From Dipylidium caninum (Eukaryota; Platyhelminthes; Cestoda; Cyclophyllidea; Dipylidiidae): 64,000 nucleotides of DNA. Below, piece after piece: positions 1-64,000 of this stretch. Numbering within the stretch: the stretch's first letter is position 1; the number at the start of each line of letters is the position of its first letter. The stretch is taken from positions 2,664,271 to 2,728,270 of the forward strand of contig QEYB01000448.1 of assembly GCA_017562135.1 (NCBI GenBank), written 5' to 3'. The position numbers and the translations under genes were made by a program. Below the pieces are notes generated by a model, which did no database searches, was not told the DNA's origin, and saw only the letters and a program-made list of their open reading frames with translations.

Positions 1-1011
1 TCGTTCTCGGACAGTTTTCTCCATGAATAGTATAAAAATTTAGTTTTATAGAGCGACGATACAAACGGAAAAGTCTGAGGCTTTTTCTGTCGAGGTCCCA
101 CGCCAATTCCTGTTCAAATCTAGGATTTTTTTCGTGTCTTATGGGATGAGTGCAGAGTATCTTAGAACCCAGTTTCGCCTCTGCAAGTACACAGGCTGTG
201 GGTAATTCTTCGAAATCCTCTCCTGTATTGTAAACAACACAGGAGAATATTAGAAATTATACCGTTCCACAACCGGTAGTATTTCTCACTAAATCAAACT
301 CCTGTTTCCCAAACAACTCACCTGATATCAGAGATAAAACAAGTAAGCGACGATCTTTCCGAGACATTTTAGAAGTGAAGCTTGCGGGGAAACACCGTCT
401 TCAAATTAGGGCGCTTTCATGGTAGGACACCCTAAAGTATGACATTAATTTTACTCCCGTATGATAAGTCTTACCTGCGTGAGTTGCTCACTGTTAAGTT
501 GGATATATTTGTTTAAACTATTTTCAGACGTGAGCTAAGGCACTAAGGTAGGCTAATGTTGGTACAACTTTTCTAAGTTAAAACCCTTTTTCTGTACTAC
601 AGGTTGGAAAATTAGCACTTCTATACACCATCACGGATAAACAATCTGCAAATTAAACACTTGCCATTGTACTTGAAAGCACCAGCAAGGGACCGCCGAG
701 CGCTTCAAATAGAAGCCGCAGACGAGGGCCACCCGGTTGCGCTGACTGCAATTGAGGTGCGCGAATTTAGGTCAGTTAAACAAACACTGATATCTCGTTA
801 CCGTTTTCACAGGCTTGGTGTACGACAGGTATTTAATGTACCACTTGTCTATAGGAGTACTTTATTTAAATTGAAATATGAATAGGCTGAACCAACGTGC
901 ATTTTACACATGGCTGTAATCTTTTCTACCTCACATTAAAAAATAAGATAACACTGATGTGTCGCATAAACCCTTGGCCTTATTTCGCGCAATGTTATAG
1001 TAATGAAACAA

Positions 1012-1150
1012 CCAGTTCATGGCTTTCAAATTTAAGTCAAAACTGTGATCTCTATTTTTCGTCCCATTTTCAAATTCCCTTCGGGTACAGTCTCCTCGAA
1101 AGTTTCAAAGTTACCTTCAGCCCGTCGAGAAGCACTTTTCTTATTTTTAA
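1012..1150 (+). repeat. interspersed repeat, copy A
   Basis: Clearly similar to the reverse complement of about 2345-2485. Both copies keep a readable frame with the shared words NLSQN, SHFQ, FGYSL and ESFKVTF. This points to an old mobile element or a duplicated coding fragment. Ends are approximate; no terminal repeats or target-site duplication were seen. Confidence 0.6.
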
Positions 1151-2344
1151 CTTCGTTGCGTATTTGACTTCTGTGGGCAATTTCAAGTACAAGCGCTCAG
1201 GAAACTAACAAAGTTGCCAACTTTGATCCCTTTTACTCCAATAGGTTTGTCGCCTTTTGGAGTGCATCAAACGAAACTGTCAACGGTGCGTAGTGAACAA
1301 TTATTTCAATCATCCGCCTGTATGTTTTCATTATATTACTCGGGGAATATCGTTGTTCATCCAAATATATGAGGATGTGCATTCTGTAGTCGAAAAGCGT
1401 GAATTTATGAGCGCTTAGAAGTGTTGTCAAACTAACCTAGATAGTGTTTTCTCCGATCATGCTTCTCTGTGACTTAGCATATCAAAATGCGGAAAATTGC
1501 TATTTAACTTCGCGGAATTTTCGACTTGATTTGAGTCCAATTCTGCGTGGCTAAGCTCCTCACGCTACGTGGTGTTAAAGCACCATGCTATATTTATACG
1601 ATAGTCTTGCCAGTGCTCTACTTTTCCCTCAATTAAACCTACTCATGCGTTTAAGGCCCTTCGAAAAGAGGTTGGAGTCACCGCCTCGGAGGAAGCCGAG
1701 TCCATCATCACTTGGGGGTATCGGCTGATGAGCCGGTTTCGACCCATCCTGTCGAGTTAGAGGGACGCTGCAGACCCAGTTTCTAGTAAGCCTACTGGCC
1801 TTCACCAACCCTAGAAGAGCACTCCGCCACCGCGCCGACATTCCATATTCCTAGAAGAACGCCTGCACGCAGTGCACCAACTCCCTCTATGAGAAGCTCT
1901 CAAAATTTCGGCGGCAATATTTATGGTAGGAGGTAACACCAGAAAATACCAAAAATGAAAACCATCTTTGACTTATCAGTACTCCAAATGAAATGTGAGG
2001 CAGGGTGGCGTGCGACAGTCTTTCAACGTAACGCGTTCACCATTTTGTGAAATCTACTGATGATGTTCAAACATTCAGTTTGAAAATCTCTGGAAAAGTA
2101 ACGTTTCATCGTTTAACAAGAAGGCCCAGACCATTCATTTACTTAGAACCTCCATTATTACCCATTATTTCTACCAGAAATTCGAAGTCAACCTAAATTA
2201 TTTAATGCGATTGGTACCCAAATCCAGTACACAAATAGCATGATTCTCGATTTTCTTGTACGGGAGGACTTGGAACTTGCTGGACGTGGAGGTGAACTTC
2301 GAGGCTGAAACGCCCTAAGGTTGGAAAAAGTTTATTTCTGCCTT

Positions 2345-2485
2345 GACGTGAAAATATCATGCTACGACTTTCGACGGGGTTGAAAGTAACCTTAAAACTT
2401 TCGATGAGACTGTAGCCGAAGTGAAGTTGAAAGTGGGACAGAAAAAAGAGATCATAATTTTGACTTAAATTTAAAAGCAGTGAAT
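2345..2485 (-). repeat. interspersed repeat, copy B (inverted)
   Basis: Inverted counterpart of copy A, about 1.2 kb away. Similarity runs from a TTTAAATTTAAGTCAAAA-like start through the FGYSL/ESFKVTF-coding part, then fades. Substitutions are scattered, as expected for old copies. Confidence 0.6.
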
Positions 2486-3982
2486 CGGCTATCTCAGGTG
2501 GGCGCAAGTGGGCTGAGGGGCTCCCCAACTCTCACTCAAATTGGGTATGGGCAAGGAGGCGCCTCGAGACTTTGTAGCCACATTAGACTGGCTTTTAACG
2601 CGCTCCCACCGTTGTCAGCACATTTACTGCCCCCTCCACCGGGCGTGATTTGAGAGTCAAAACATTAAGGCGTCTCAACCAACCGGTCAGGCGTGGAAAG
2701 TGATAACAGAAATTGAAGTAGAAGTGACTTGAGAGGAGCGGCTTTCCGCTTCTCAGGACTCATGTTCAGGCGCTGGGCGGGCTAGTTGGCGGTCTATTCG
2801 CAGACAAGTGTTCCCACATCCACCTGCTGGCGAATTAAACCTTCGCCCTCGCGAATTATTTAGGCTGCGGGAAAAATTGGGGGCTAGGACGAAGATAACC
2901 GCTAAAGGGACTTGGATTTACGGTATGTGTTTATGTCTCAGCGAGTAACATTGTAAGGGAGTTGTTCTGGCCTGAATATGCTTTTCTTCTGGAAGGGAAG
3001 GAGGTGGGGCTTTTTTAAGAAAGTCCTATTTCCCTACATGAGATGGCGAGATGTGGCCGAGGCCAAGAAAGGCGTGCGGCGGGTTGTGGACTGCAGCAGC
3101 GGGGATGACTGCCTAGCTTATCGCGGCCGAGGATTTTCGGAACGTCGAAGAGCGCCGCATGCCGCTGGTGGATGATGAGGGGGGAAGGACGACGCCAAAA
3201 CCATCCTGCAGGGGGGAGAGGAGGAGAAGCGATTATGCCTCCATGCCGTTCCCCTTTGCGATGTAAATGTAGCTGAAGTACATTTAACTGGAATACGACT
3301 TTTCGTAGCCTATGAAGGAGTGCAGGTAGAAAAATCCCACAATGCCGATGAGCGTCAGCGGTGAATACTCCTGACGGCATTTAGGATTCCTTAACTGGCC
3401 CAAGTTAACCCTATTGACCTCGACGTGGGAGACGATGAGGCGATCAGACCCGTCCACTGACGCGAAAATTAAGAGCCACATCGTCTCCATCCTTCTAAAT
3501 TTATGGCGCTGAGGCCATTTATTTAAATATTCCCCCTAGGGAATCCACTGCCTATGTGGGTCCGCCATAAATCACCGCTCACGACCATGTGTTCGCACCA
3601 TTCGCGTCGAATAACGGCGACATTGGGAGTGAGGGGACAGACTTCGCAACTGTGCCGGAACGGCTGGCGTGGGTTTGCTTTACTGACGACCCAGCCTCCG
3701 GCGGGGACAAACTTACGTGGAGGATTTCCTCTGCGGCAGAGCAAATTTACATACTCAACCAACTGTTAATCTCGAGCTCACGTGGAAGCATGGTGTGAGG
3801 AGGGGACGAGTCCAGAGAAATGGAATCACGATTTGGGAGCGTGTGACACCCCGCGGCCGACGGCTCCGCTCGAGGCGACCCGGTTGCCTGAGGTTGGGGC
3901 TATGCACGTAACTAGGAGATTATTATTTTAGTCTGTGATAAGATCTCACAGTTTTATTCGCGCTTCAAAGAGTAATGAAACA

Positions 3983-4040: not shown

Positions 4041-4844
4041 TTAGTTTGGGTAGCTGGTTGTGACAGCTTCGGTTTGAGCAATTCGTCGTATAGAGGCACG
4101 GGAGCGGGGAGAGTAGAGGAAAAATTTCCTCTTGAAGAGGCCCAAAGCAGCCTTCCTGAATGTGCGTCGTACCAAACAGTAGACGAAGAAGTTAGTGCTC
4201 AGGTTAATCATGAAGAGGAACCACGCGATGTAGTAAATGTCCGCCAGGCTGCCGGATGACTCTTTCCACGTGTCGAGGAAGTGATTGAAGGTCTGGACCA
4301 CATTGATGATCGCAGAAGGCAGGGTGAGAGCGACGAAGCAAAATGACACAGCCAAGAGTTGCATTGTGGTGGAGAAACGCGAGATCGGCAGGCCCGACCC
4401 GGAGTGGCTGGCCACACCTCCGCGCCTGCCCCGCCCCCCTCCGCCTCCGCCTCCGCCCAGTCCAAACTCTCCTTCAGCACCAGGCTGTCGACGATTGCGG
4501 ATCTTGTGGAGGATGACGGCGTTGCAGGAGCAGATAATGGTGGCCGGGAGGACGGAGAGGAAGAGAACTTCGAAGATGCGGTTGACGTTGAGCACTTCGG
4601 TGGGGCGGCAGACAAACTCGCCGGTGCCGCAAGGGTCTCGCACTGTCTCCAGGGCAAAGAACCATGGCATGTTGAGGAGGAGGCTGATGAAGACCGTGAG
4701 GAGGATGTGGAGCTGAGTGCGTCGGAGAGTGAAACACTTGATGGCGTGAAGGGGCCACACTACTGCAATTAACCGCTCGATGGTGAACATCACGACTGTC
4801 CACGTGGACAGAGTTCGGGAGGTGAATGATACGAACACGGTTAT
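4041..4844 (-). CDS. GPCR exon: TM3 to TM7 and C-terminal tail
   Basis: 804 nt after the acceptor CTTTTCAG. Holds TM3 with ERL, TM4, extracellular loop 2, TM5, a glycine-rich loop 3, TM6 (FCFVALTLPSAI), TM7 and the stop codon. Confidence 0.85.
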   Translation of the reverse strand: MTVFVSFTSRTLSTWTVVMFTIERLIAVVWPLHAIKCFTLRRTQLHILLTVFISLLLNMPWFFALETVRDPCGTGEFVCRPTEVLNVNRIFEVLFLSVLPATIICSCNAVILHKIRNRRQPGAEGEFGLGGGGGGGGRGRRGGVASHSGSGLPISRFSTTMQLLAVSFCFVALTLPSAIINVVQTFNHFLDTWKESSGSLADIYYIAWFLFMINLSTNFFVYCLVRRTFRKAALGLFKRKFFLYSPRSRASIRRIAQTEAVTTSYPN

Positions 4845-6235
4845 CTGAAAAGCAGGCGTAGAGAAAAAGTAATAACGTAATGAAGAGGCCGCTAACCGGT
4901 TTATGCCAAAATTGTTGCTGATTGCAAGGACAAAGAGAAATGATAAGTTGCGTGTTTGCCAGCGCTCTGCTTACGCCCTCCGGACAAACGGCCAGCGAGT
5001 TGTTGCAGGGACTGTCGTCTACACGTCTTAAGACTGTCAAAAGGGGCAATTTGATAATAATGTGATGATAACAATGGAAAAAAAGCCTCCGCGTCCCCAC
5101 AGAGGTTCGGTAGTGACTTGCCCAGTTGCCTCGTCCTCCAGAACCGGCTAAATGTATATTCCAGTGGAAGGGAAATGCGCTACTGTGTGGAGAGCGGTCG
5201 CTAATTTGAACCAAGGAATTGCCTACAGAGCTGCCTCAGTCGCCACCTCCTGAACCCCACGGCGCCCTCGGTGGCGCCTTACACGATAGTGCCAATTGCC
5301 AACGTCTGTCGGCTCGGCCTTAGGCGGCTCGGGGCCTGGCCGCGACGGGACGGGACGGGGCGGGGCGGGGCAGGGCAGGGCAGGGCAGGGCAGGGCAGGG
5401 TGGAGCGAGGAGACGCGTTTAGCGGCTCGGACACATGCTGGGGGCGGTGGGGTGGATGCGCCAGCTTGGCTTTCGTCGGCATGTAGAGCAAAATCTTGAG
5501 GCTGCTCTCTCCGTTCCAACGTCCCCTTCACCGCCACCCACCAAAAGGTAGCGAAGCAGAATCGCAGGTAAATAATTACTTACTGCTGCCCTATTTTGAG
5601 TTTAATTAATCCTCCGCTTTATTGCGCTTTATTAATGAGATTCCCCGTCACCCTGGGGAGCAAGTGAGGCGATGTCGTACGTCAAAAATCACAGCCAATA
5701 AGATTAACGGTATTGTCCGGTGGATGACGAGAAAAAGGCATTGCTAAACACTACGTGAACGTGCTCACAGTTGAAGAATGATGCCGTCGATGGAGGAGAG
5801 CACGCACCTGACAGACTCCGGGCTTCGAAAAGTAAATGTCTATTGCCGTGAAGGCTGGTCCCGATTTAGACATGAGGTATACTTTGAGCACCATCAGCGG
5901 GTAGAAGGTGCACTGGAAGGCCGTGATGGAGACACAGTCGAACACGGCCAGGCATCGCAGATAGCAGATGCAAGCAGTCTCCTTGGAGGTTGCGTTCAGC
6001 AGCGCTATCACGAATATGTTGCCTAAAAGGAATGCGCATTGGTGAGCGACGCCGGCCCGCACCAACCGCCCGCTCTGTGGGCAGACGAGAAGACCGCGGC
6101 CAATGAAGGCGGCGTCGGACTCACGCACCGACAATCCCGATGACGGCGACCACGGGTTGCACGTAGGTGAGGAAGAGGATGACGCCTGCGGACGGCCTCC
6201 CGTTGGAGTGGCTCCCGAGGGTACTGTTGTAGCAA
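4041..6235 (-). CDS. class A (rhodopsin-type) GPCR, neuropeptide-receptor-like, 5' exon missing
   Basis: Seven-transmembrane receptor, probably for a neuropeptide (FMRFamide-type is a guess). Exons on the minus strand are 6235-6129, 6022-5808 and 4844-4041, joined in phase by introns of 106 and 963 bp. TM1 ends in the GIVGN signature across the first junction. TM2 contains LRCLAVFD. The TM3 cysteine is in GVCQ; the DRY position reads ERL, followed by IAVVWPLHA. A second extracellular cysteine lies in the DPCGTGEFVC loop. TM7 has NLSTNFFVY where NPxxY is usual, then a basic tail. Intracellular loop 3 carries a glycine/arginine-rich insert. About 373 residues are visible. The start methionine and N-terminus must lie in an upstream exon, because the first visible exon begins at an acceptor-like site (pyrimidines then CTAG) with no in-frame ATG. 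An N-glycosylation site (NST) sits just before TM1. Assignment to class A is firm; the ligand is unknown. Confidence 0.85.
5344..5402 (+). repeat. G-rich pentanucleotide repeat in a GPCR intron
   Basis: Imperfect period-5 array that drifts from GGGAC through GGGGC to AGGGC units. The closely spaced G runs on the plus strand could fold into G-quadruplexes. It lies in the 963-bp intron between TM2 and TM3. Confidence 0.9.
5808..6022 (-). CDS. GPCR exon: end of TM1, TM2, first extracellular loop
   Basis: 215 nt after a CTTTTAG acceptor. Encodes NIFVIALLN, TM2 and the loop up to GVCQ, the conserved disulfide cysteine. The donor is GTGCGT, phase 0. Confidence 0.8.
6129..6235 (-). CDS. GPCR exon: N-terminal tail and TM1
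   Basis: 107 nt with the CYNST glycosylation site and TM1 (VILFLTYVQPVVAVIGIV). It ends at a GTGCGT donor in phase 1, so the TM1 asparagine comes from the next exon. Confidence 0.7.
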
Positions 6236-8713: not shown

Positions 8714-9415
8714 ATGCCGCAGGGGGTGTCCAAATGGCGATTTTTCGAAAATGCTAACCGAGTTGAAGTAATCGGCTTCAATGCATTTTACGATGAAGCC
8801 ACTCTTGGGGGGATCGAAGCACTGGCCCGGGTTCCGTCAACTTCCAGCCTCATGTCGGGCATGGCACAGTCGCCAAGTGTCCAGCACGAGGGGCTTAGTT
8901 TACTAGCAGGTGAAAATCCTGCTCCTCCGCCTCCTCCTCCTCCTCGTCGAGTTTGCAACCATACTGGGGCAAGAAAGAAGGAGAAGGACGACGCGATTAT
9001 CCGGCGTATGAAGGAGACAGCAGGCGAATCCATTTCGACTAGTCTCGGCATTTACTTTTTCACCACCCGGACATCAAGCCTCGGGGCATTTCTCTTGAAG
9101 TGGAGAGGATTGCGTTCAACCGGCATTAGAAAAATACGTGGAGTGAAGCAGGACATTCGGGGGAATTTTGCAAAACCGGCGTATCATGGCGACGCGAACA
9201 CTTTCCGTGCACCGGAGTGGATTTTCGACTTCAGTAAACAAGCGAGTGTCACCGTGCTTCGTGCTGTTATTCCTGCTAGTGTGGGCGTTATTACCCCAGT
9301 CAACCTCTCCTACTCGCGCGGAGAGGCAAAGCTGTTAACCAAATTGAAATTTCTCTCCGTGGCGACAGCTAAGCAGGAATTAGGCGCGTCTGTTGCAGGT
9401 GAAAGAGATACCTGA
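8714..9415 (+). CDS. hypothetical ORF, 233 codons, function unknown
   Basis: One of the longest uninterrupted frames in the window outside recognised exons. The translation starts MPQGVSKW, carries a short proline run (APPPPPPP) from a CCT/CTC-rich stretch near codon 70, and ends GASVAGERDT. I see no signal peptide, membrane segment, coiled coil or known motif. There is no obvious splice context on either side. It may be chance openness in GC-rich DNA. Confidence 0.2.
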   Translation: MPQGVSKWRFFENANRVEVIGFNAFYDEATLGGIEALARVPSTSSLMSGMAQSPSVQHEGLSLLAGENPAPPPPPPPRRVCNHTGARKKEKDDAIIRRMKETAGESISTSLGIYFFTTRTSSLGAFLLKWRGLRSTGIRKIRGVKQDIRGNFAKPAYHGDANTFRAPEWIFDFSKQASVTVLRAVIPASVGVITPVNLSYSRGEAKLLTKLKFLSVATAKQELGASVAGERDT

Positions 9416-56421: not shown

Positions 56422-56612
56422 TCACTTCTTCGTCTTAGGTTTCAGAGAATACCGAAGATGACGTAAGAGGGCTGAGGCCTTATGTCGTTCTGTCTTTCGC
56501 GAAGGGTACGGCTGCGGGTTCGCCGACGCCGACGGACCAGACAACTCGCCGTGCACAAAGCCCTCGGCACCATCGGGTGAGCCAGATGTTGAAGGAATGT
56601 CACCATATGGTG
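56422..56612 (-). CDS. unknown gene, last exon block h
   Basis: PYGDIPSTSGSPDGAEGF, Ser/Ala-rich, then a basic end (LLRHLRYSLKPKTKK) and stop. The 78-nt intron before it is free of stops in frame. Confidence 0.65.
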
Positions 56613-58626
56613 CTGAGGGATTAGAAACAGAAACAAGAGCGCTCAGATGAGTTAAAAGAAAATCAACTGGCGAGCAATGGTGGGACTTACGGTTCGTCCC
56701 ATCTTGCCGCTGCGCCTCCACAAGAAGACGTTCTGTCATGACAGCGAGACGATGACTGCCCTGTGAAACGCCAAGATAGATGCGCGCCAAATGATTGTTG
56801 GCGGCCCTCAGTCGATGTCGCAGATCGCGATTCACATTGAGCTGTTGTTCCAACTGTAATTAAAATAAAGTATACATGAATGCCTTGGTGTGGCCCTCCC
56901 TTAGCAAGATAATGTGTGGGCAGCTTACGGTCGTTCCAATTGCGTTGTATTGTTGGGTCAACAAATTTGCCAATGATCGCAACTCCTCAATATCATCGAG
57001 CGTGTCAATAGCCCAAATCAATTCCTGAATGGGGGCTCTGGACCAACTTTGCGGAAGACCCGGTGATTCAGGAATTCTTTGAAAGTCACCATATAAAGTG
57101 CTGTCTTCCGTAACTTCGCATTTCGTCGAGATTCCACTCTCGCCATTAAGGAGGTGGGTCAATCGGAGACTGGTAGCCAGCATCTCATCCGCTTGTGTCT
57201 GCAGTAATTTCGGTAGTGAAGGGCGTTTCAACGTGGATACCATTTCCTTAAGGAGATTCCAACATCTGCGTAGCAAAGCTTTGACCTCATTTGTCGACTC
57301 AAGGTCGAGAGAATTTTGACTTGTCTCCGAGTGTGAGGTTGACTGCCGTGGAGATGTATGACCTGGAGAAGGCGAAGGAGATTGGAAAGCCGGAGGCTCT
57401 GAACGACGACAACTCGGGGGAGCAGCAGGAGGGCCTCTGATTCAGGCAACCTGACTCGGTTGACGGGGAATACAGCGAAAGGATGAGTGGCTGAACAAAT
57501 CCCGAATTTCTTGAATCAGCCGAAGTTGCGCGCTCTCAGTGCAGTCGTCTCTCGAAGGAAGCGACACTTGGGTGCAAATGAACGGTCGACGAGATTTTCG
57601 CCACCAGGCAGATTGCTCAAAAGATAAAGAACCTCAGTGTCCCGAATATTTAAAAGTCGACGTAAATACAACTCCGTGGAAGGAAGTTCAAGAGATACAA
57701 GAGGACGCGAAAATTTCGCCATAAAAGGAGGCTTATGAGGTCGTGAAGCTCCGTTAACCAAGCATAATCGCAAACCCGACAGTTGATTGAGCAAAGTGGC
57801 CAAAGAGAAGGAAGGGGATTCCTCCAGTTGACCTGCACACACCGACAAGCCTGCCCAGAAGGCATCCAGTAAGTGTGAAAGTCGAAGCCTTTGGCTGTTA
57901 AGCTCGCCCGAAGGACGCAGATTGGGCTCACTTTGACTGCAATATCTAAAGCAGGTATCCCGCATAGGAGGTCGAGACGACAATTCAGATTGACGCAGTG
58001 ATGAAGACCACATATTTCTGACTTCTGGGCCCCAAGAACTGTCCCCTCATTTGCGGTCGGTGCATCAGTAGGCGAGAGATTGTTACATAGATACCACGTT
58101 AGCTTATTTAGTGGCGACTTTGCATTAGGCTGCAGTTTCATCGGTGCCAAGTAACAAAGGTGTTGAAATTTGCCAAAAAAGTCAGACCAAGAGGACAACA
58201 TTGATTGGATTTGCAAATGGAGAGCAGATTTTTCGTCTGCAAAACCAACGCCTGGGTATATTAAGACGCTCCAATTGGAGTGTTCAAAGGATGCACACAA
58301 ATACCCCTCACCGCCTATTGAATGGAGGTGGCTGCTCGAAACAGGAAGAGGGCTCGTCGACACCGGGGCGCCACCGACACAGGATGGCTAGTAAGAATGT
58401 CAGAGAGAGATTCCAAATTGATCTGAGGCAAAGAGAAAGGAGAAATGCATTCCGTATCAGAATGAACCAAAGTATCTACAGCACCTGAGGCGACGACTGC
58501 AGTCGAGAAAGCGAACCGAATTTCGGAGAGTAGACCAGACAACTTTACAACCAGAGAAGAGAGAGATGCAGAAAAGATGGGAAATTCAGAAAAGGCGATA
58601 GGAATATTGAGAACATTTAAAGACTC
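56422..58626 (-). CDS. unknown leucine-rich helical protein, 3' part of gene
   Basis: Not recognised. Likely exons on the minus strand: 58626-58364, 58331-58312, 58236-58095, 58038-57568, 57532-57451, 57396-56929, 56853-56691, 56612-56422. Introns are about 32, 75, 56, 35, 54, 75 and 78 nt. The product has helical, leucine-rich stretches (HLQIQSMLSSWSDFFGKF; LRLSHLLDAFWAGL; LLRRCWNLLKEMVSTL; IQELIWAIDTLDDIEELRSL; LEQQLNVNRDLRHRLRAANN), a Ser/Pro/Thr-rich linker (FQSPSPSPGHTSPRQSTSHS) and a basic end, LRYSLKPKTKK. This looks like a coiled-coil or scaffold protein, perhaps cytoskeletal or centrosomal, by composition only. The first visible exon begins at an acceptor after a long pyrimidine tract, so more exons lie upstream, possibly in the repeat array. 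The end of exon 1, the 20-nt exon 2 and the exon 4/5 junction are uncertain. Confidence 0.6.
56691..56853 (-). CDS. unknown gene, exon block g
   Basis: LEQQLNVNRDLRHRLRAANN, a charged helix, to AQRQDGTN; acceptor TTTTAATTACAG, donor GTAAGT in phase 1. Confidence 0.7.
56929..57396 (-). CDS. unknown gene, exon block f
   Basis: Ser/Pro-rich linker followed by helical segments with LLRRCWNLLKEMVSTL and TLDDIEELRSLANLL; donor GTAAGC, phase 0. Confidence 0.65.
57451..57532 (-). CDS. unknown gene, exon block e
   Basis: AQLRLIQEIRDLFSHSSFRC then IPRQPSQ before GTTGCC. The frame differs from block d, so an intron of about 35 nt is required. Confidence 0.5.
57568..58038 (-). CDS. unknown gene, exon block d
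   Basis: Largest open block: SWGPEVRNMWSSSLRQSEL, LRLSHLLDAFWAGLSVC, LATLLNQLSGLRLCLVN, STELYLRRLLNIRDTEVLYL. The donor (GTGTCG) is one of several possible. Confidence 0.6.
58095..58236 (-). CDS. unknown gene, exon block c
   Basis: EKSALHLQIQSMLSSWSDFF then GKFQHLCYLAPM; acceptor GGTTTTGCAG, donor GTATCT, phase 2. Confidence 0.6.
58312..58331 (-). CDS. unknown gene, candidate 20-nt micro-exon
   Basis: Needed to link block a to the next exon in phase: it begins after TTTCGAGCAG and ends at GTGAGG, reading HLHSIG. A 23-nt version with another AG is equally possible. Confidence 0.35.
58364..58626 (-). CDS. unknown gene, exon block a
   Basis: ESLNVLNIPIAFSEFPIFSA onward to INLESLSDILTSHPVSVAPR. 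The acceptor has a long T/C tract ending TTGTGCAG. The frame meets a stop about 50 nt beyond the proposed donor. Confidence 0.5.
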
Positions 58627-58877
58627 CTGCACAAAATGAAAGAAGAATAAGGATTTAGAGGAAAGAGAAAAAAAAAATGGAGAAACGAGGTTGGTCTAAA
58701 GGACAGGAGTCGCCGAATGAAACAAGAGAAAGTGAGAGATTTCGGGATTTTCTGGTTCAGAGGAGGAGCAGAAATCGCAGAGTTTGAGAGACAACGAACA
58801 CAAAAATGTCCTTCCGTCAGGGAAGAGTTAGGCAACACAAAAGAGAGGGGAAAAGGGGTTGCCGAGAAAAAGAGACT
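58627..58877. other. C/T-rich stretch between unknown gene and repeat array
   Basis: On the minus strand this is a very pyrimidine-rich region that could be intronic. The open minus frame (SSLTEGHFCVRCLSNSAIS) has no identified function. Confidence 0.4.
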
Positions 58878-61800
58878 TCCGCTCGGCAAAGTTGGTGAGT
58901 CAACTCTGCTGGATCTTCACCGTCGACAGGCCGACAAGGTTTTCTGTTCAACTCGTCCTCCAGGAGTTTTCAGATTCGGTTCTGAGGGTCCGCATCTCCA
59001 ATGGCCACTCCCGACAACAAACTGCGTCCGCTCGGCCGACTAAGCGCCTCCTGCAGCCTCTCCTCCACGTCTTCTTTCCGCCTCCATTATCCTCAGGGCC
59101 TCCTTAAGCTCCTTATTCGTAAAGCCTCAATCGCCGCCATCGGAGGCCCGCATTTCGCGCATCCCTCGCGCTTTCAGTCAACAAACTCACTCTCCCCAGC
59201 CATATGGAAACGCCTTTTTCCACCTCCCTTTGCTGCTGCCCCCCCTCGCAGGGCACAAGGTCGCTCCCGAGGTCTCGCCATTTGTCGGTGGCCAGACAGA
59301 CAACAAAGGCGTCCTCCATCACCGCCTTACCACACTCGGCTCCACAACTTCGGCGGGAACACCGACAAATGCGACCTCGCTCGGCAAGTTGGTGAGTCAA
59401 CTTCTTTCCACCTCACTCGCCGACAAGGCCTCGCAACTTCACCGATTTCTGCACGACTCTCCTCCTCCCATGACCCTTCAAACGTTTCTCGCTAACTCAC
59501 CTCCAATCTCCAACGACGCAACTTCGCGTCCCTGCCGCCGTTAGCTACCGCCTCCTGCACCTCTCCTCCAGCTCTTACTTCTCCGCCTCCCTCATCCTCA
59601 GGCCTCGCTCAAGCTCCTTATTCGTCGCCTCAATCGCCGCCATTCGGGCCCGCTTCGCCGCATCCTCGCGTTTCACTGTCAAACAAACTCACTCTCCCAG
59701 CCAATTGGAATTCCGCCTCTTCCCACCTCCTTTGCTGCTCACACCAACCTCCGCAGGCACTCAAGGTCGCCTCCGAGGTTCTTCGCCATTGTCGGTGCAT
59801 TGCAGACAACAAAGGCGTCTCCATCCGCTTCACCACACTCGGCTCCACACAACTATCGGCGCGGAACACCGACAAATGCGACTCGCCTCGCAAAGTTTGA
59901 GTCAACTCTTCCACTCCGCCGACAAGGCCTCTTCTTCACCGATTTCTGCCAACTCTCAATCCTCCAGACCCTTTCAAACCGGACTCTCGCAAACCTCCTC
60001 TCCGACGAACCGCAACTTCCGCGTCCCTCGCCGCCGTAGCTACGCCTCCTGCAGCTCTCCTCCATCCGTCTTCTTCTCCGCCTCATCTCAGGGCCTCCTT
60101 CAAGCTCCTCCTCGTATCCCTCGCCTCAAATCGTCCGCCATCGGCGCTCATTTGCCCGCATCTCTCGCGTTTCACTGTCAAACAACTCACTCTCCAGCCA
60201 TTGGAATCGCCCCTCTTCCACCTCCCTTTGCTGCTCACCCACCTTCCGCAGGCACCAAGGTCGCCTCCGAGGTCTTCGCCATTGTCTGGTGGCATTGCAG
60301 ACAACAAAGGCGTCTCCATCACGCCTTCACCGCCTTCACAACTCGGCTCACAAACTTCCGGCCGGAACCACCGACCATAAGTGCGACCTCGCCTTCGCAA
60401 GTTGGAGTGAGTCACTTCTTCCACCTCCGCCGACAGGCCTCGCACTTCACCGTTTTTTAATTTCTGCACAACACCTCTTCCGAGACCGCAACTCCTCCTG
60501 CGTAGGACTGCCGCAGTTTCAACCGCGTTTTTTCGTTTCTCGGGCCTCTAAGTCTTTCTTCGCAACATTCGGGCCGATCTCCGACCTGTCACCATCTCGC
60601 ACTCTTTGTGCTCACCACCTCGGAGGGCCCTAAGGTCGCTTCCGAGGTCTTCGCATTGTCGTTTTGCATTGCAGGCCATAGCGTTCGCACACCATCCGGT
60701 TCAACTTCGGGGACGAAAATGGATTAACTGCCTCGGAGTTGTGGAGTAACTCTTCCCTCGCGACTATGGCGCACTTTCACATTTCTGGCCTTCCATCCAC
60801 CTCACTCGGACTCCCTCGCCGCCCGGTAAAGCCTTTCTTCTCCGCCTCCTCATCCTCAGGGCCTCCTCCACTCGACACAGTTCCTCTTCCCTCGCCGTTC
60901 ACTTCCTTCCGCCAACATGATTGTCCAACGCTTCAACAACTCATCCTTCTCCGTCTCCTTCTCGGCCATATTCCCTCGGCCATTTTTTCTCACTTTCACA
61001 CGCTTCTTCTTCCAAACTCACTCCGCACCTCTCTCTCACTCGCCGTCTTCTCTGCCACTCGGCCCTCAGTTCACCTCTCTCCCACTCACCTCTCGCTTCA
61101 GTCACAAATGACATCAACTCCGCCCCATGTGACACTCTTGACGACACTCTGCTGCTTGCCTCCAATCGACGCGGCAATCGCGTGCCGCATCTCTCCGATC
61201 GCACTCCACGGCATTTCACGGGCTTTCTCTCCACCACCGCCTCACTCCGCGTTCTAGTCTGTTCCGCAGTGTGACTGTTTGTTCAGCTCATTACATCTGA
61301 TCTGAACGACGATCAACTCACTCCGCCTGCTCCTACCTCCAACACGAATTGGCACCTCGCCTTGCGACTCAGGAGCGGCTTGTCCGCCAATGTCCTCACC
61401 GCGCAAAGCGCCTCTCCCCACGCGGTGTCCACTCTCCTCCCATACGCGTGGCAGTTATCACATTCTCTGGCGTCGCGGACCCTGTCGCGCAAGAAACGCA
61501 GAGGCTCGTTTCATGCCCTCTTACTTACCCGACCGGGACACGGAGATGCAAATCATTATGCGAAGTTGGGTGAGTCAGACTCTTCACACTCGCCGACAAA
61601 AGGCCTCGCACTTCACGATTTTTCTTGCACACCTTCGTCACTTAACCGGTCTGCACACCTCCATCTCGACCGCGCAATTCGGTCCTCCGCGCCGTAGTAG
61701 ACTCTCCGCTCTCTCCAGTGTTAGTCTTTTTGCTCCGCCTCCTCTTCAGGCTCTCAGTCCTTTTCCGTCGCTCAGATCGCCGGCGCATTCGGGCCCCGCA

Positions 61801-63920
61801 TTCGCCGCATCTCGTGCGTTTCACTGTCAACAACTCACTCTCCCACATTGGATGCTCTTCACTCCTTTGTGTTTTTCACCACCTCCCGCGGCCAGGTCGC
61901 CTCCGATGGTCTTGCCATTGTCGGGCTTTGCAGACACAGGGTCTTCCATACCTCTTCACCACTCGCTCCCCATACTCCCGGCGGGAACTTCCGATCAATC
62001 TTGACTCGCGTTCGGCAAGTTGGTGAGTCATCTCTTGCTTCGCCAAAGTCCACCCCGCCGACGAGGCCTTCTAGCGTTCGTTTCTGAACTTTCTTCTCCG
62101 ACCTTACCCCCCGGGTTTTCGCACACCTCATCTCGGACGCGCAATGTCCGGCGTCCTCGCGCGTAGTCGCTTCCTGCAGCTTTTTCAAGCGTCTTTTTCG
62201 CCGTCCTCTTTCCTCTTGCTCATAGCTCTTTATTCGTCTGCCTCATATCTCAGTTCGGGGGTTCGGTTCGGTCCAGCATTGCCGCATCCTTGCGTTTCAT
62301 CTGTGTCTTCACACTCTCGCTTAGTGATTTGGATGTTTTTATGCACCTTGACTTTGTTTTAACACTCGCATGGCTGCTTAGTCGCGTCCTCGGGATCTTC
62401 GCCTTGTCCGGTAGGCATGTCAGACAAAGTCGGTCTTCTATTCAAACGACTTCTATTATCACATTCGATCTATAAAATTATCGCGGGAAGCGACAATGCG
62501 TGACCTTGCTTCCCCGGAGGTTGGTGATCGGTCATATATTTCCCATCCTCCGTCGACAGGCTGCTATTCATTTCCTGACTTACTTCCTAGCCCTTCAACG
62601 GCTTCGCAAGCCTCATCTCGGACGACGACTTACGCCGTCCTCGCCGCCCGTAGCTACCTTCTCTCCAGCTTCGTTCCAGGTCTGTTTTCTACGACTCTCC
62701 CATCTCAGGGTCTTCTATAGCTTCTGTTTATTTTGTTCAATCCGCCGCCTTTGGGCGCATTCGTCGTCTTCCTCGGGTTTGTATGTCATATATATCACTT
62801 CCCAGCCTTTGGATCGCCTCATATGTGCACTCCCTTTTGCTCCTCAACCACCTCGCAGGCCAAGGGTCGCCTAGAGGTATTGCATTGGTCGGTGCCATGC
62901 AGCAACAGATAGGCAAGTTCCATCACGCTTCACACATCGGTCACAACTGTCAGGCCCGGGACCGCAATCGACTCTCAGTCTCTGAGTGTGGTCAACTTTC
63001 CACGTTCCGCGACAAGGGCCTGCACTTCCCGATTTCTTACGACTGCTCCCTCGATTCAGCCCACCCGTGTAAGTTATCGCAACACTCGTTCCGCGACGAC
63101 GTTACACGCGTGGATCGCGCCGTTAGTACCAGCTCTGCGCTCTCACGCCTTTTCTTCTTCTACGGCTACTTAATTCAGGGCGCTCTCAAAGGGTGTAGAT
63201 CTTTTCGATCGACTCAATTTGCGCTCTATCTCGGGCACGCATCTCGCGCCGCTTCGCGTCTTCACTGTCACACTCATCTCTTGCAGTCTTATTGGTCGTC
63301 TTTTCCAAATCCTTTGCTGATCACACCTCGCGCACCAAGGTCCCTCGAAGGTCTTGCCATTGTCCCTGTGCATTGAGAACTAAGGCGTCGTCCATCTACC
63401 GCTCCATTCGAGCTCCCGATATTCCAGGCCGGGACACGACAATGCGACCTCGCACGCAGTTGGATAGAGTACTCTTCACTCGCCGACAAAGGCTCGACAC
63501 GTTCCGATGTTTCTGACACTCTCTCTCCGACCATTTTTCACCGGTTCTTTCGCACACTCATCTCGCGACGCAACTTCCGGCGTCCTCGGCCGCTCGTAGC
63601 TACGTCCTCATCAGCTCTTCAGTCTTTTTAGCTCTCTCTCTTGGCTACATCACTTCTCGGACGTCTTTTCGTTCGTGTTTCTCTCGCACATTGATCCAAC
63701 GCGGGGGTCGACACACCAGTCCAGACCTCCTATCTCCTCTCTGTCTCGGGTATGTCTCGGCCTTGGTTCCCTAGGTTTCCGGCTTTCTTCTTTGAACTGT
63801 CTCGTCCTTCGCGGTTTCGTCTGACACTGGCCATAGTTGCTCTCCCCACTCACTTTCACAATTCGACATACTCCCCATCCACCTCGCAAGATCTCTGTCT
63901 TCATCAGAGCCAACACACTG
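58878..63920 (-). repeat. degenerate tandem array, unit about 0.5 kb, roughly ten copies
   Basis: A GTTGGTGAGTCA-like word recurs near 58891, 59388, 59895, 60401, 60738, 61565, 62019, 62520, 62987 and 63459; the first three intervals are 497-507 bp, later ones more variable (about 340-830). Other anchors recur too: TTTCACTGTCAA, CAGACAACAAAGGCGTC, TCCTGCAGCTCTCCTCC. Copies differ by scattered substitutions and one-base indels and become harder to align to the right. On the minus strand the unit reads as an E/A/K/R-rich frame, for example LTVKREDAAKRARMAAIEAT followed by NKELERGLRMREAEK, and elsewhere LQEAVATAARDAEVASSEM. Confidence 0.85.
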
Positions 63921-64000
63921 TGACCACATGTTGAGTCTCACTCCTGCTCATGCTGCCTCCATCTCGACAGACGGCGCAATCGCGCTGCGCCCGCACTTCC

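Follow-up and report, generated by a model that had tools for sequence, protein, structure and literature searches.

A terminal coiled-coil repeat array in Dipylidium caninum that very probably forms the middle of one giant tapeworm gene

The array and the coding sequence next to it

The window analyzed here is a 64,000-nucleotide stretch of the tapeworm Dipylidium caninum (G000:C852:2664271-2728270, in an assembly of 106,277,105 bases and 920 contigs). It has a mean guanine-cytosine (GC) content of 47.7%, and its base 64000 is the final base of contig C852. The contig ends in a degenerate-looking tandem array at window positions 58869-64000, whose sense strand is the minus strand. On that strand the array runs from 64000 to 58869 and is followed by the C-terminal coding sequence of a tapeworm protein (58686-56425). 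The array is built from three modules, called S, a and b, which combine into a short unit (S+a) and a long unit (S+b). The features that bear on it are listed below, where aa stands for amino acids, P0007 is the Echinococcus canadensis protein A0A915EX99 and P0006 is a record without a species name.

58869..64000, minus strand: contig-terminal tandem array built of modules S (coil), a (linker plus short coil) and b (long coil), with many insertions and deletions (nhmmer with clean modules from contig C731; genome DNA search; contig end at 64000)
59104..60101, minus strand: short units (S+a) in the best condition, with anchors at 59105, 59610 and 60101 (anchor spacings 505 and 491 bp; module matches)
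60870..61540, minus strand: b module, specific to the 334-aa unit (nhmmer, 2.1e-71)
63733..63989, minus strand: partial second b module at the contig end (nhmmer, 1.5e-11)
58384..58686, minus strand: C-terminal coding, first piece past the array (tblastn of P0007 228-331, 38%)
58097..58300, minus strand: C-terminal coding, second piece, in another frame (tblastn of P0007 350-418, 43%)
57429..57947, minus strand: C-terminal coding, third piece, in another frame (tblastn of P0007 470-638, 49%)
56425..57558, minus strand: C-terminal coding to the stop codon (tblastn of P0007 599-926, 51%; P0006, 60%)

Module sequences were cut from clean copies on a second contig, C731, and searched with nhmmer at a cut-off of 1e-3. 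They gave 17 matches on the minus strand of the window (9 S, 6 a and 2 b; E 3e-5 to 2e-71) and 16 S, 11 a and 5 b matches on C731. Tandem Repeats Finder, with a longest period of 500, did not report this array, and neither an Rfam search nor a tRNA search of the window returned a match.

A genome-wide search, whose match counts are lower bounds, found the array, both as DNA and as repeat protein, at just two contig ends in 106 Mb, those of C852 and C731. On C731 the array lies at 587,858-598,394 of 598,478, in the orientation complementary to that on C852. The two arrays measure 10,628 bp (C731) and 5,132 bp (window), and the true array may be longer. Read in gene orientation, C731 carries a hexokinase gene, the N-terminal exon of the array gene, the array and then the contig end. 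The two contig ends look like two sides of one uncrossed array, left as ends because the assembler failed to cross it.

The N-terminal exon (L009:5193-8840; L009 is a stretch of C731 oriented as the array gene) encodes 1,216 aa without a stop, inside an open frame of 1,244 aa, and is preceded by exon 1. It has one match in the genome. Five significant relatives were found among 7,992 scored proteins, at 53-57% identity, and they come from Taenia, Hydatigera or Echinococcus. The junction of exon and array (L009 ~8780-8860) may be genuine or reflect a minor error of assembly. The hexokinase gene upstream lies at L009 ~1000-2640 (+); the one exon tested there matched PF00349 with 86 bits, over the Pfam cut-off.

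Past the array on C852, four pieces of the window align with the C-terminal region of tapeworm proteins, at 38-51%, and P0006 is 60% identical to one of the C-terminal frames. Two small introns lie within the last piece, with limits set by eye at ~56928-56854 and ~56690-56613.

Repeat modules and the condition of the copies

Module S (237 bp) encodes a coil of ~79 aa that is common to both unit types. Module a (252 bp, 84 aa) pairs a proline-bearing linker (VFPSEVVEPSVV...) with a short coil, and module b (765 bp) is a long coil of 255 aa; all three lengths are multiples of 3. In a clean copy, the short unit A (S+a) is 489 bp or 163 aa with an open frame. The long unit B (S+b) is ~1002 bp or 334 aa, also open, the reference B copy being 1003 bp with one surplus base. 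Unit lengths were taken from clean copies because the consensuses are faulty (a missing base; surplus columns): the S+b consensus (1002 bp) is open, and the S+a consensus is one base short and out of frame. In C731, one to three a modules stand between successive b modules. Clean stretches there have open frames (359, 360 and 273 aa); some of these leave the true frame at their ends. Exact DNA repeats within C731 reach 465 bp, to which polishing may have contributed.

An earlier note, made from the letters of the window, had proposed a terminal tandem array that is read on the minus strand, and both proposals were borne out. The blocks it quoted (IEATNKEL, LQEAVATAARDAEV, EVVEPSVV and VGEQQREVEE) are all present in the unit. 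Its unit of 504 bp or 168 codons gives way to 489 bp and 163 codons. Anchor spacings are 491 and 505 bp in the window and 489-578 bp in C731; those in the window scatter around 489 bp because the copies carry indels, and 504 sits among these noisy values. A single unit length does not hold either, given the second unit of ~1002 bp. The stop-free reading stands for the clean units, which have no in-frame stops; it fails for the window copies, which are frame-broken and have stops at 10 of 1,109 codons.

The broken frames of the window copies raise the question of read errors or decay. Error rates per copy were measured against a common, imperfect consensus and are approximate. On C731, copies lying over 6 kb inside the contig end have insertions at 0.7-0.8%, deletions at 0.8% and substitutions at 2.2-2.3%; for copies within 6 kb of the end, these three values are 5.0-7.2%, 1.3-2.7% and 1.1-3.1%. 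Copies in the window reach 4.5-7.6% insertions, 4.0-13.3% deletions and 4.1-10.7% substitutions. With indels set aside, stop codons number 10 in 1,109 in the window and 3 in 3,223 in the C731 copies. Most indels are of 1 bp (282 of 367 in C731; 319 of 423 in the window), and multiples of three number 21 in each.

One could take the window copies as truly broken, that is, as a pseudogene-like tail of the array, with only the inner C731 copies functional. Their substitution (4-11%) and deletion (4-13%) levels above those of C731, their stops and an above-chance sharing of indels in one of four sets fit such a tail. On the other hand, indels are mostly of 1 bp, in the other three sets their positions coincide no more often than chance would give (p 0.21, 0.56 and 0.14), and C731 copies near their own contig end are likewise indel-ridden while those more than 6 kb inward are nearly clean. 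Furthermore, the C-terminal sequence downstream is conserved with relatives, yet it shifts frame three times on the array side, from ~58.4 to 57.4 kb and not beyond (small introns are possible there). We consider a decayed tail highly unlikely. The frame breaks resemble indels left uncorrected in long reads more than they resemble decay, and the window copies look decayed because both contig ends are largely of uncorrected long-read quality. Unpolished reads can thus make tandem arrays at contig ends resemble decayed genes, which calls for caution.

Tapeworm relatives and the case for one gene

The tapeworm proteins fall on different parts of the predicted product. P0001-P0005 resemble its N-terminus, P0002, P0003 and P0007 its repeat, and P0007 and P0008 its C-terminus. 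P0002 (E. canadensis A0A915EY73) and P0003 (Taenia crassiceps TcWFU_001511) join the N-terminus, as on C731, to the repeat, and both stop inside the repeat. P0007 starts in the repeat and ends in the C-terminus encoded by the window, and P0008 (Taenia asiatica) carries the same C-terminus. P0001 is Taenia solium TSMEX_001678. Together, P0001-P0003, P0007 and P0008 are apparent, uncharacterised orthologues, and with its homologous N-terminus, repeat and C-terminus the Dipylidium gene belongs to the cestode coiled-coil repeat family of P0002, P0003 and P0007. Among the matches listed, named relatives come only from tapeworms, and P0006 lacks a species name; the gene is most likely restricted to tapeworms.

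P0003 contains two tandem units of 329 aa, identical at 201 of 202 comparable residues. Aligned over 336 columns, the B unit of the array and the T. crassiceps unit are 54% identical (E 2e-93, from a set of five sequences). The Taenia unit differs in that the start of module a is fused with module b, whereas the Dipylidium array has 163- and 334-aa forms alternating irregularly.

Since relatives join N-terminus to repeat and repeat to C-terminus, one gene is the best reading of the two contig ends. We consider it very probable that the array occupies the middle of a single giant protein-coding gene in this cyclophyllidean tapeworm, with a rod-like product. A unique, helix-rich N-terminal part (exon 1 and the 1,216-aa exon) would lead into numerous tandem coiled-coil units, and a unique C-terminal part of ~700 aa would close the protein; each unit would consist of the S coil plus either a (linker and short coil) or b (longer coil). 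We infer from these joins that the ends of C731 and C852 belong to one locus and that the reading frame would run uninterrupted across the entire array. The predicted size is at least about 5,500 residues, the value if the array ends overlap fully, and about 1,350 + 5,250 + 700 if they do not overlap, the N- and C-terminal lengths being estimates. Two further proposals of the earlier note gain from this comparison. The independent tapeworm proteins support coiled-coil repeats in a very large protein, and they also support the note's view of 56.4-58.6 kb as its non-repeat helical C-terminus, as P0007 joins the repeat to the same C-terminus. What the note took for a first exon just downstream of the array is C-terminal coding sequence; the N-terminus lies on C731.

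The two contig ends might instead be different loci, that is, separate genes or fragments with a common repeat and no single giant protein. No sequence links the two ends, the E. canadensis N- and C-terminal models are distinct entries (P0002 and P0007), and the longest exact match between both arrays is 53 bp, although low exact identity is expected because of the error rates. Against this, each contig end holds the half missing from the other, the N-terminal exon matches the genome once, the repeat turned up nowhere else in the genome, and the joins in P0002, P0003 and P0007 cover both sides of the repeat. Separate genes are therefore unlikely.

The conservation of the repeat as protein also bears on the idea of a non-coding satellite or subtelomeric repeat that is open by chance, or of coding on the plus strand (a 328-aa frame at 59474-60460). 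The array is contig-terminal, that plus-strand frame is present, antisense frames of the unit consensus have few stops, and the variation among copies looks neutral. However, the minus-strand unit is conserved at 54% in T. crassiceps, its repeat is joined to N- and C-termini in relatives, its module lengths are multiples of 3, and the array is flanked by what in relatives are two conserved halves of one protein. We give these possibilities almost no weight.

Several observations weigh against one continuous gene. No single sequence spans the array to connect C731 with C852. At the N-terminal exon/array junction the frame shifts near L009:8840, and the array begins mid-module. The level of error is uneven, with a clean patch in C731 near 594.9-595.4 kb, ~3.3 kb from the end; in the window, the two modules adjoining the C-terminus carry more errors than the next ones out, and a modules share indels above chance (p 0.007; one of four sets). 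Module a alone has no heptad signal (reached by 1,319 of 2,000 shuffles), and that of the whole unit A is weak (153 of 2,000). The AlphaFold model of the C-terminus has a predicted local distance difference test score (pLDDT) of 35.4 and is useless. Variable sites among S and a modules, counted where three or more of the 16 S or 11 a copies in C731 carry the minor base, number 26, and they fall 8, 9 and 9 on codon positions 1-3, so that the codon bias named in the earlier note is not seen. Of the 26, 7 are clearly synonymous and 2 are unclear, the neutral expectation being 26%. No selection between array copies was thus detected by codon position or synonymous share, in a test that has little power because the copies are noisy and homogenised.

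Copies within a species are far more alike than those between species, as seen in the T. crassiceps pair (201 of 202) and its 54% identity to the Dipylidium unit, which would place the gene with other giant proteins whose tandem coiled-coil repeats are homogenised. Within a species, unequal exchange and gene conversion may keep copies near-identical while species diverge. If continuous, the gene would be a good example of concerted evolution within a coding gene and would encode a very large tapeworm protein. GC content at third codon positions is 74% in the array modules versus 38% in the N-terminal exon. At fourfold sites the array has 62% G and 12% C, and in the exon G and C are nearly equal. 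GC-biased gene conversion could raise GC, but alone it leaves the one-sided G excess unaccounted for.

Annotation of the assembly would probably miss or break such a terminal repeat gene, and the Taenia and Echinococcus models stop or start inside the repeat. A record-level search of the literature found no account of such a gene.

Elsewhere in the window, a rhodopsin-like G-protein-coupled receptor exon lies at 4041-4970 (-) (PF00001, 67 bits). In the assembly as a whole, the top COX1 match has six in-frame TGA codons and no other stops, which fits the flatworm mitochondrial code. COX1 matches occur on C637, C471 and C261, and four of six carry TAG or TAA stops, which suggests that the assembly contains mitochondrial contigs, nuclear copies or foreign DNA.

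Possible role and comparison with known giant coiled-coil proteins

Heptad periodicity was assessed as the hydrophobic period against 2,000 shuffles. The period is 3.50 in unit B and 3.55 in the Taenia unit, each reached by 0 of 2,000 shuffles, and the signal of module S alone was reached by 27. The predicted model of the N-terminus of P0004 is weak (pLDDT 47.5) and helical, with a 177-residue helix at 666-842. Pfam gave nothing over its cut-off in the N-terminal exon, exon 1, the C-terminal frames, the repeat or six relatives, and profiles of the C- and N-termini, searched against PDB sequences, gave no match (E<=1; E<=0.01). By hydropathy, no membrane span is apparent in five proteins (highest KD19 1.49), and no signal peptide is apparent by hydropathy and eye only. 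The lack of a Pfam family, membrane span or signal peptide points to a long cytosolic coiled-coil rod or scaffold as the most likely product. The span of the rod would depend on the number of units. A helix rises 0.15 nm per residue, so a fully helical B unit would be ~50 nm long.

Several known systems were compared with the array gene. Pericentrin/AKAP-450 is alike in its long coiled coil, and the partial relative P0004 bears that name in UniRef. No PACT (PF10495) match was found in P0007 or P0008 at E<=1. One PACT exon is present in the genome (C593:614179-614433 (-), L018), separate from the array gene; the N-terminal exon, the repeat and P0008 have no tblastn match (E<=1) within 26 kb around it. 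The UniRef name is unsupported because this one PACT exon lies in another gene. Centrosomin/CDK5RAP2 is a long coiled-coil scaffold and resembles the array gene in this respect. Its Cnn_1N domain (CM1, PF07989) was not found in P0001-P0004, and the best match in the genome, 20.1 bits on C211, is below the cut-off of 28.5. As for nesprins, P0007 and P0008 have no KASH (PF10541) match, their highest KD19 values are 1.24 and 1.31, and no calponin-homology domains were found in the N-terminal exon, exon 1 or P0001-P0004. A KASH search of the genome gave 10 weak matches, all on other contigs and one just at the cut-off. Membership of the array gene in the pericentrin, centrosomin or nesprin families was rejected on these results.

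ANC-1 of Caenorhabditis elegans is described as having six near-identical tandem repeats of 903 residues that are almost 100% conserved in nucleotides (PMC8139857). It is likewise a giant protein with near-identical tandem helical repeats, but it has calponin-homology and KASH/membrane domains, none of which was found in the array gene. By analogy, ANC-1 may be the best mechanical parallel, its defining domains being absent here. More speculatively, and with rather little expectation that it is right, the product may act as a ruler or spring peculiar to tapeworms, 5,500 to more than 7,000 residues long, in which two kinds of coil cassette alternate; the number of cassettes would vary between species and perhaps between worms. 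Without calponin-homology or KASH domains, such a protein might space organelles or anchor microtubules in the syncytial tegument, as ANC-1 does in the nematode epidermal syncytium.

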